64,000 nucleotides of DNA from Actinocrinis puniceicyclus (GTDB lineage Bacteria; Actinomycetota; Actinomycetes; Streptomycetales; Catenulisporaceae), in contig NZ_JAGSXH010000002.1 of NCBI RefSeq assembly GCF_018283645.1, forward strand, positions 62,001 to 126,000, read 5' to 3'. Positions 37,561-48,190 of this stretch are shown piece after piece. The translations under genes were made by a program, and so were the position numbers. Numbering within the stretch: the stretch's first letter is position 1; each line of letters starts with the position of its first letter. The notes beneath the pieces were generated by a model, which was given only the letters and a program-made list of their open reading frames with translations, was not told where the DNA came from and did not search any database.

Positions 37561-37812
37561 ATGTACCTTGATGAGGTGAGCATCTTCTTCGACCTGTTCA
37601 GTCCCGGCAATCGGCACCGCACCGAGGAGTTGCGCCGGTTGGAGAACACGCGCGAGGAGGAGACACCGGGGGAACCGGGCCGCGGCCCGATCGACTTGAA
37701 CTCCGGCACCGTGTTCATCAAGGCGCCCGGCAACCGGCCCGCGGCAGCTCCCGCCGAGATCGTGTCAGCAGACGAAGACGCCGCCGTCCGCGAAGAGGAC
37801 GGCGGCGTCTAG
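37561..37812 (+). CDS. DUF6191-like small protein
   Basis: An 83-residue charged protein. SIFFDLFSPGNRHRTEELRRLE followed by GPIDLNSGTV is the pattern I associate with the small actinomycete family DUF6191, function unknown. There is no signal or membrane segment. ATG 37561 gives the annotated form; GTG 37576 (beginning VSIFFDLF) is equally possible. The frame continues upstream to 37396 without family similarity. Its TAG stop forms part of a CTAG and is followed by an intergenic 36-bp repeat copy, then the convergent lon gene. Confidence 0.7.
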   Translation: MYLDEVSIFFDLFSPGNRHRTEELRRLENTREEETPGEPGRGPIDLNSGTVFIKAPGNRPAAAPAEIVSADEDAAVREEDGGV

Positions 37813-37824
37813 AGGCCCCGGTAT

Positions 37825-37860
37825 GAGGACGCTCCGGCCGCGCGCCCATGCTCGTCGCTG
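37825..37860. repeat. 36-bp exact intergenic repeat, copy 1
   Basis: These 36 bases are identical to 47052-47087, in the same orientation, 9.2 kb away. Both copies lie between convergent genes, and this one sits between CTAG at 37809-37812 and CTAG at 37874-37877. It begins GAGGACGCTCCGG. Confidence 0.9.
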
Positions 37861-37962
37861 CCGGCGCGGGACACTAGCATCCGACGCCGGGCGGCGCCGG
37901 GGAGTGTCCGCGGGGCCCTGATCCGAGCCTGAGCGTCTCCCGGCACCGCCTCCAGCGGCGCG

Positions 37963-46443: not shown

Positions 46444-46947
46444 GTGAGTACGTTCAGCCCGAACGAGTCAGCCCAGTGGTTCGCGAGCCTGCCGAAGCTG
46501 GCGCTCTCCGCCAACGCGGTGTTGCGCGACCCGCACGGCAGGGTGGCGCTGGTACGCAACACCTATCGCGACGGCTGGTCGCTGCCGGGCGGTGTGGTGG
46601 ACGACAACGAGCCGCCCGCGGTCGCCTGCGTGCGCGAACTGGCCGAGGAACTGGGATTCGTCGCCGAGCGGCTCGGCCCGCTGCTGGCGGTGCAGTGGGC
46701 GCAGCGCTCCGACGGCAGCCCGGTGCAGTTCCTGAGCCTCACCTTCGACGCGGGAGTGTGTCAGGCGCCGCATACGCTGCGGGCGCAGCCGGAGGAGATC
46801 GCCGAGATCGGGTTCTTCGAACCCGGCGATCTGCCGCGGGGCACGCGGCCTTTCATCGCGCGCAGGCTCGCCGCCATCCGTAGCGCGCCCGGAACCGTGG
46901 TCTACCTCGAAGAGACCTGGCCGCCGGACGGCGCCACCCCGCTCTAG
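46444..46947 (+). CDS. Nudix hydrolase
   Basis: A 167-residue Nudix enzyme. The Nudix box GGVVDDNEPPAVACVRELAEELGF matches GX5EX7REUXEEXGU with one loose position (N in place of the first Glu), so activity is likely but the first residue is atypical. Such enzymes hydrolyse nucleoside diphosphate derivatives. GTG 46444 follows the frame's first plausible start; the ribosome site is weak. The TAG stop (46945-46947) coincides with the left CTAG of the mobile element that follows. Confidence 0.85.
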   Translation: MSTFSPNESAQWFASLPKLALSANAVLRDPHGRVALVRNTYRDGWSLPGGVVDDNEPPAVACVRELAEELGFVAERLGPLLAVQWAQRSDGSPVQFLSLTFDAGVCQAPHTLRAQPEEIAEIGFFEPGDLPRGTRPFIARRLAAIRSAPGTVVYLEETWPPDGATPL

Positions 46948-47158
46948 GCAGTGTTGCGGAATGCCTCAAGGGGCGAATCCGGTGATCGACTTCGCCTGGA
47001 CGCACGGCCGAAACGTCCACAGACGACCGCTGTGTTGAATCATGAACGCGCGAGGACGCTCCGGCCGCGCGCCCATGCTCGTCGCTGACCGGATTCGCCA
47101 TTACGATTCCGACAAAGCGGCGGCCGAATCGTTGCCTTGATACATTCCCCAACACCGC
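46948..47158. mobile_element. MITE-like element, 211 bp
   Basis: Imperfect 24-bp terminal inverted repeats (46948-46971 and 47135-47158; 20 of 24 positions match) are flanked by CTAG on both sides (46944-46947 and 47159-47162). CTAG fits the YTAR target duplicated by IS5-type elements. There is no transposase ORF. A nested 12-bp perfect inverted repeat lies at 46972-46983 and 47088-47099. It fills most of the 286 bp between Nudix and phyH. Confidence 0.6.
47052..47087. repeat. 36-bp exact intergenic repeat, copy 2
   Basis: These 36 bases are identical to 37825-37860, in the same orientation, and lie inside the MITE-like element, bordered by its inner inverted repeat. Confidence 0.9.
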
Positions 47159-47233
47159 CTAGAAGCGATCCGGAAGCGAGCGACAAGCCCACCGGGCTCG
47201 CGGCCGGGCGCGGCGCCGTCGTGGCGACCCGGA

Positions 47234-48190
47234 CTACCTGTTGTTGTTCACGGCCGGATCCAGCAGCCCGCGCTCGGACAGGTACTCGCGCAGCGGGAAG
47301 CGGTCCTCACCCAGGCCCCAGTACGAGATCGCGTCGCGGCCGCCGCCGAGCAACTGCCGCTGGATCGGCGTCAACCGCTCCCACCACGGATGCCCCGGGG
47401 TGATCACCCGGTCCTCGTGCGGAGCGATCCAGCGGTACGTCCACCCGACGAACAGCACCCTGCGAGTGATCTGCGAGTAGTTGTCGGACCGGCCGTGGTA
47501 GATGCGCCGGTCGAAGACGACGACGTCGCCGCGGTTCGGGCAGACCTCGATCGCCCCCTGCGGATCCTCGAAGCCGAGTTCCGGACGCTGCGGGCGTGGC
47601 AGCCGGCCGGTCTTGTGCGAGCCGGGAATGCACATGAAGTTGCCGCGGCCCGGCTCGGAGGCGTCGGAGAGCCAGAACGAGGTGCGGATGGACAGCAGTG
47701 GGCGCACCGGCTCGGTCTCGATTTCCAGGTTCTGCCGCCCGCCGTCCTGATGCCAGCGCCAGACCTTCCCGCGCGGCCGCGGGATCGGCGGGTGCACGTC
47801 CAGGTGGTGGTGATAGGCGTGGATGTTCCAGCCGAGGATCCCCCAGACCAGCGGGAAGACGGTGGGCAGCTCCAACAGTTCCAGGAAGCTGTTGTCCCGG
47901 TGCAGGAAACCCATCAGGTGCAGGCTCTGGTCGTCCGGGTGCAGGCCGCCGGACTGCTTCTCCGCGGCGTACACCCGGTCCATCGCCTCGTCGAGCCGGC
48001 CCAGCAGCTCTTCGGGCACCGCGTCGCGGACGATGAAGTAACCGTCCCGGTCGAAGTCGGCGCGCTGCTGTTCGGAGAGCAGGACGCCGTCGTACGGCAC
48101 CGCCCCTGCCGCGTGCACGCCGTCCCGCGCCCCGGACCGGCCCCCAGCCGTCTCGTGTGCGCTCATGCTGCCCAAGGTCGTGGCGCTCAA
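47234..48190 (-). CDS. phytanoyl-CoA dioxygenase family (Fe(II)/2-oxoglutarate) enzyme
   Basis: A 318-residue member of the PhyH superfamily. The iron ligands are H147-x-D149 in RWHQDGG and H232 in YHGRSDN, and the Arg downstream that anchors 2-oxoglutarate is in ITRRVLF. The family hydroxylates varied small molecules, including secondary metabolites and osmolytes; the substrate is unknown. TTG 48190 is preferred because GGGAGGGA lies 4 bases upstream; the ATG at 48166 has none. It converges on the Nudix gene across the MITE-like element. Confidence 0.9.
   Translation of the reverse strand: MSATTLGSMSAHETAGGRSGARDGVHAAGAVPYDGVLLSEQQRADFDRDGYFIVRDAVPEELLGRLDEAMDRVYAAEKQSGGLHPDDQSLHLMGFLHRDNSFLELLELPTVFPLVWGILGWNIHAYHHHLDVHPPIPRPRGKVWRWHQDGGRQNLEIETEPVRPLLSIRTSFWLSDASEPGRGNFMCIPGSHKTGRLPRPQRPELGFEDPQGAIEVCPNRGDVVVFDRRIYHGRSDNYSQITRRVLFVGWTYRWIAPHEDRVITPGHPWWERLTPIQRQLLGGGRDAISYWGLGEDRFPLREYLSERGLLDPAVNNNR

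Follow-up and report, generated by a model that had tools for sequence, protein, structure and literature searches.

The window, a stretch of 64,000 nucleotides from Actinocrinis puniceicyclus, contains a short inverted-repeat element between the 3' end of a Nudix gene and that of a convergent dioxygenase gene. The element belongs to a group of miniature inverted-repeat transposable elements (MITEs) that we call family A, and a truncated relative lies some 9 kb away. The features are as follows.

37817–37877, plus strand: truncated chimera in which half of an A-type core (the right one) is fused to the right end of a B element (B ends GTGTCCCGCG...); a covariance-model match covers 37760–37869 (E 0.03)
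46444–46947, plus strand: Nudix gene (open reading frame; Pfam NUDIX, 2e-17) with a TAG stop that is the insertion site
46945–46946, no strand: left TA target duplication, which doubles as the first two bases of the Nudix TAG stop (junction comparison)
46947–47159, no strand: MITE of family A, 213 bp; 21 copies with both ends and junctions
46947–46971, plus strand: left terminal inverted repeat, 25 bp, GGCAGTGTTGCGGAATGCCTCAAGG
46972–47099, plus strand: hairpin core common to MITEs with other ends (covariance model, fold z, covariation)
46973–47098: match of the window core to covariance model R1, 118.5 bits
47135–47159, minus strand: right terminal inverted repeat, 25 bp, matching the left one at 21/25 positions
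47160–47161, no strand: right TA target duplication (junction comparison)
47234–48190, minus strand: PhyH-type dioxygenase gene, convergent, with its gene end 74 bp past the element

An earlier note had described a 211-bp MITE-like insertion here, and most of its anatomy was borne out. The left end pairs with the reverse complement of the right end at 21 of 25 positions (20 of 24 on the note's shorter span), and the family A end pattern, with up to three mismatches, occurs at these two places only in the 64 kb and in 0 of 100 shuffles. The perfect 12-bp inverted repeat nested within the element (GGCGAATCCGGT/ACCGGATTCGCC) forms part of a longer 19-nt pair with 89% identity, and the interior fits no transposase open reading frame, in keeping with the claim that the element encodes none. 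Insertion at a stop codon also held, as the Nudix frame ends with TAG at 46945–46947, and this siting proved general among family copies. The 36-bp internal block that the note had seen at a second locus corresponds to window positions 37825–37864 (98% identical) and comes from the chimera at 37817–37877.

What did not survive was the proposed four-base, YTAR-type duplication of CTAG. TA flanks both sides in 20 of the 21 family A copies; the outer letters are mostly C and G, which gives CTAG, and the four-mers differ between the two sides in 7 of the 21. At one locus (L008), a family A and a family B element abut with TA alone between them (A|TA|B). The unequal outer four-mers and this junction speak against the four-base duplication, and we therefore take the duplication to be TA within a CTAG-like site. 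Because the duplicated target is TA, both ends extend a base further than in the note and the element measures 213 bp; the element itself stands and its bounds move. Among core-bearing loci of all kinds with ends matching at 14/18 or better (n = 100), 76 had TA at either flank and 71 had CTA..TAG.

Copies elsewhere in the genome, which the note had proposed to look for, were plentiful. BLAST against the 6.77-Mb draft assembly (430 contigs) gave five full-length copies at 98–100% identity, including the window element, three further long copies at 86–90% with interiors 17–18 bases shorter, and many short copies or fragments. The 21 copies with both ends comprise 8 long forms, 12 of 83–84 bp, and one of 97 bp, so that 13 of the 21 carry family A ends without the core. 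Deletion of 130 bp from the long form, at a CGGA microhomology (a direct repeat of 4 bases), gives the 83-bp form; the short copies are therefore deletion derivatives that have themselves spread, and their existence makes the core dispensable for jumping. A full-length copy was found in the window's own genome only, among 99 genomes including that one, with the best 8 candidates per genome scored. A look for empty sites in relatives yielded none at this locus: the nearest Nudix orthologues (59–69% identity) lie in other contexts with no insert; one of the three that were read ends in CTAG, and the window's genus is represented by one genome. Short, without a transposase, bounded by terminal inverted repeats and a TA duplication, and scattered through the genome in several copies that share its ends, 46947–47159 is confirmed as a genuine MITE. 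Family A copies at two loci (L004 and L021) adjoin sequence of the GTTCGGATCAT type, which family C (L024) likewise has in its ends; these may be nested insertions.

The note's assignment to the IS5 type was supported by a partner insertion sequence (IS) in a sister genus. The right end of the element was matched at 92% in three Catenulispora-type genomes, where it belongs to a 1121-bp IS bordered by CTA and TAG, with copies in G008 and G009 identical at 1120 of 1121 positions. Its transposase has a DDE domain (PF01609, 2e-17; PF13586, 1e-11), and its ends match those of the family A MITEs at 20 of 22 positions. As a query, this transposase was found at 100% in G008 and G009 and in more distant form in eight others of 14 genomes. 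The search for an IS with matching inverted repeats thus succeeded in Catenulispora-type genomes and failed at home: the transposase had no match at E≤0.01 in the window's own assembly, with G008 and G009 positive as controls. As this assembly is a 430-contig draft, the source IS may have been lost or may have gone unassembled. IS5 itself makes a 4-bp YTAR duplication, which the 7 of 21 copies with unequal four-mers do not show; on the basis of the partner's transposase, we file family A with the wider IS5 family and not with IS5 proper.

Several candidate partners were set aside. No partner in the window's own genome was accepted by its ends among the IS630-type and DDE_Tnp_1 transposases, and a 502-aa transposase (contig C81, L086) with 14/19 end matches at 1.5 kb was judged a chance hit after its ends were read. 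A scan of genome contigs with the end pattern gave 10 loci, from which the Catenulispora rubra locus was used, a Streptomyces hygroscopicus locus had only one good end, and the remaining eight were taken as chance without being read. The window's own draft assembly also contains a DDE_Tnp_1 transposase gene between inverted repeats of unusual length (106 bp, 92%; L092 1383–1487 and 2832–2937, G000:C115).

The family A copies sit at the ends of genes. TA plus the first G of the element forms the in-frame stop of a coding-like frame in 13 of 21 copies, and the remaining 8 joined sites all fall outside such frames (0/21 inside overall). As background, we used 64 CTAG sites in 459 kb of one genome, excluding sites near known ends and stretch ends; 18 of these were such stops and 18 lay inside coding-like frames. 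The differences were significant both for stops (13/21 vs 18/64; p = 0.008) and for in-frame positions (0/21 vs 18/64; p = 0.0045). Against non-coding CTAG sites alone, the family A contrast looks weak (13/21 vs 18/46). When core-bearing elements of every type are taken together, wherever the flanks are long, 29 of 42 lie exactly at a stop (30 of 43 rows, with L064 counted twice), a higher share than in the full background (p = 5e-5) or among non-coding CTAG sites (p = 0.006). Within family A, lack of the core does not make a stop-codon site less frequent (core-less, 9/13; core-bearing, 4/8), and the siting thus follows target and selection, not the core.

The interior of the element is not confined to family A. 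BLAST against the window's own genome matched it at places with other ends, and the same central hairpin is present in families B, C, and D and in further families from two sister genera. We built one covariance model from 12 cores and a second from 36. The first found the core in 31 of 60 genomes (E≤0.01), and in 459 kb of own sequence it matched the element on both strands and the 37.8-kb remnant (E 0.03), with everything else at E≥0.18; because so little else matched, we regard this model as specific. The second found the core in 27 of 32 chosen genomes (E≤1e-4), including 13 of 14 genomes of the same family, with 57 matches over the two strands of the window's own genome and 40 and 37 in two genomes of a genus that we take to be Streptomyces-type. 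It found no core in the complete same-family genome G002 or in four Streptomyces-type genomes picked as previously matchless. A class-wide search, in which the best 9 candidates per genome were scored and negatives are weak, placed the core in 19 of 394 genomes and 4 of 138 genera. The core is therefore common in one order and patchy. Viral contigs searched with the exact core pattern gave no match, nor did phages. Searches of Rfam gave 0 matches at E≤1 for the window part and, for 8 other loci, mir-K12-10 only, whose 29 bits fall below its gathering score of 70; a tRNA search found none.

Multiple measures indicate that the core, which spans ~110–128 bp and has a conserved apical loop around ACAGACGACC..GTATGAGG, is structured. 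The fold z score was −5.6 for the window core and −5.1 to −8.5 for five single cores compared with shuffles. Pairing across cores was scored in alignment A3, a structure-blind MAFFT alignment of 36 cores hand-picked from 118, from which long-loop and insertion-bearing cores were excluded. For 44 pairs, 80.7% of cells were paired, compared with 32–41% when the structure was slid and with 65.0% (sd 0.7) after shuffling, a control that is too easy given the relatedness of the cores and applied to a structure that came from the same sequences. Both sides had changed in 32 of the 44 pairs, and the covariation score was 0.374 compared with 0.154; further pair types numbered 63 vs 62.2 in shuffles, which is no excess. 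Symmetric mismatches recur at fixed places in several genera. In one core (L198 301–465, G012:C903), ~58 additional bases lie close to the loop, which thus tolerates or carries inserts, and seven loci in two genera (L100, L101, L102, L201, L215, L216, and L220) have an extra insert of ~24–27 bases in the 5' arm.

The ends vary widely. Of 118 core loci, 108 have ends that match at no fewer than 13/18 positions, and 100 reach at least 14/18; after L102, L201, and L255 were dropped by hand, the 97 remaining loci fell into 13 end classes at a 14/18 threshold, 7 at 12/18, and 17 at 15/18. The automatic caller placed wrong ends in some rows (L147, L152, L173, and L201, for example). Two of the 13 classes are one-base register shifts (L144 and L218), and the caller overlooked family C (L024); we therefore speak of about a dozen end types. 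Family B ends (GTGTCCCGCGCCGGAAATCCG) resemble those of an IS630-family IS that the window's genome carries (CTAGTGTCCTGCGTC...). Between N and O elements of a Catenulispora-type genus, the cores are 82–87% identical in the top pairs and the ends 33% (null mean 35%), whereas between O and R elements from two genera the ends are 83–89% identical and the cores 43–46%. Judged from these identities, cores and ends have separate histories. The 37.8-kb chimera and a second A/B recombinant in the same genome, which starts as A and ends as B (L011), have the sequences expected as the trace of end exchange around a kept core. Adjacent A–B pairs at two loci (L005 and L008) suggest a route for such exchange, in which a new insertion enters the TA beside an older element.

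Some related arrangements were seen along the way. An IS630-family IS with a 361-aa open frame and ends CTAGTGTCCTGCGTCTTAAATTCG, like family B ends, lies at L078 1368–2511 (G000:C120) and is possibly a relative of the driver of family B. Six N elements (L189–L192, L208, and L209) have a replaced 5' arm (CGCGCTGTATCCGTTGGC...), a partial exchange within one family. In G051, a single-contig Streptomyces-type genome, two end pairs 65 and 55 bp apart (C1:956432–956496 and 4193160–4193214) leave no room for a core and, from their spacing, appear to be core-less minis of the P family. A partner for P ends was sought there, and the 95 end matches (two mismatches or fewer) contained, among the matches listed, short pairs only and none spaced as in an IS.

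We interpret these elements as modular MITEs that have in common one structured passenger, an explanation to which, taken whole, we assign a probability of about 0.8. Family A is non-autonomous, with 25-bp ends of the IS5 family on which an IS5-type transposase would act in trans. This enzyme would excise the MITE and join it to the TA of a rare CTAG site, duplicating the TA. At a TAG stop, TA would come from the target and G from the first base of the element; the stop would remain intact, and insertions at gene ends would therefore be harmless and survive, with insertions within genes presumably lost. A TA within a CTAG target combined with an element that starts with G would thus provide a rule for harmless insertion in high-GC genomes. 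The interior would be a separate hairpin module that moves among MITEs with unrelated ends, probably through recombination between neighboring or nested elements. MITEs are normally regarded as passive deletion products with uninformative interiors. In the present set, a single covarying hairpin is found between ends of about a dozen unrelated types, in no fewer than four genera, and one genome contains chimeras. If our explanation is correct, the core is the unit of survival and the ends are replaceable tickets, and it becomes testable why MITEs retain an interior.

The interior could instead be meaningless filler from an internal deletion in an ordinary IS5-derived MITE. MITEs commonly are deletion derivatives, and the core-less copies have spread too, but beyond the ends the interior has no clear similarity to the 1121-bp IS and it is conserved across genera and among MITEs with other ends, which makes this explanation very improbable. 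A single ancient MITE lineage, with a static core and ends that drifted stepwise toward different IS5-type transposases, would account for the GGG-CTGT-like skeleton seen in many end types, and drift between IS5 relatives is conceivable. Such a lineage is hard to reconcile with N and O ends that are at chance level despite cores up to 87% identical, with the reverse situation for O and R (ends up to 89%), with the A/B chimeras, or with family B ends that resemble an IS630-family IS and not IS5, and we consider it quite improbable.

Two further alternatives accept the core and dispute what has kept it. Template switching during replication corrects quasi-palindromes and yields paired changes, and so covariation might, wholly or in part, be a by-product that involves no selection for structure; the core is indeed an imperfect palindrome, and both of its strands match the model. 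Correction of this type should, however, remove internal mismatches, which instead persist at fixed positions across several genera, and letters of the loop are conserved; we view a mutational origin as unlikely, if worth serious consideration. A structured RNA or terminator that is useful to the host and kept by it is, as a model, less likely again. It would suit the large fraction of core elements directly at stop codons and the 11 of 43 rows in which the core lies between convergent genes, but core-less copies also occupy stops, and the core is absent from the complete genome of G002 and from several Streptomyces-type genomes. The earlier note had raised a terminator between convergent genes for the window element, and its position between Nudix (plus) and PhyH (minus) fits. 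No U-tract terminator was found at the element, and the core has no orientation bias relative to genes: genes read into it from the plus side only in 13 rows, the minus side only in 14, both in 11, and neither in 5. Without such a bias or U-tract, an RNA or terminator role lacks positive support.

Within the modular explanation that we favor, the most likely role for the core can be proposed tentatively, at less than even odds: as a bidirectional RNA or DNA hairpin just behind stops, it might prevent insertions from doing harm, in the manner of a terminator or 3'-end insulator. Also at less than even odds, the core may be a structured parasite, or a functional nucleic acid, in its own right: an obligate hitchhiker that changes carriers across the order and is kept because its fold acts. 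If so, the core would outlive any one IS through recapture between the ends of the next, and its fold might act as a processed RNA, by ending transcription behind stops, or by recruiting a host protein.

Family A resembles known IS5-family MITEs of the IS427-like subgroup in being short, multicopy, and without open reading frames, with IS5-type inverted ends and a TA-containing target, and differs from them in its hairpin module, common to MITEs with unrelated ends, and in duplicating TA and not four bases. IS630 prefers CTAG, and MITEs of the IS630/Tc1-mariner group share the TA duplication in CTAG, with family B ends like those of the own IS630-type copy, but family A ends match an IS with PF01609/PF13586 (IS5-type) and not PF13358. 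Correia/NEMIS, RU, and Rickettsia palindromic elements are each generally described as one repeat with one set of ends, unlike the core described here with its many end types, a distinction drawn by description and not by sequence. They do resemble core MITEs in size (~100–150 bp), in long stem-loops, and in TA at some ends (PMC2229807). The portions available of this and other articles (including PMC10969869 and PMC1590033), located by blunt searches, mention no core common to MITEs with different ends and no such elements in actinomycetes, and their absence from print is weakly supported; a common core under exchangeable ends may thus not have been described previously, a claim with the same weak support. 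Finally, plasmids yielded one core element (L243), which has AGGGCTGTCCCGTAATCC ends and is carried by a linear plasmid of Streptomyces sp. NBC_01001 (NZ_CP108712.1); this plasmid is mobilizable and is a possible route of spread between species.
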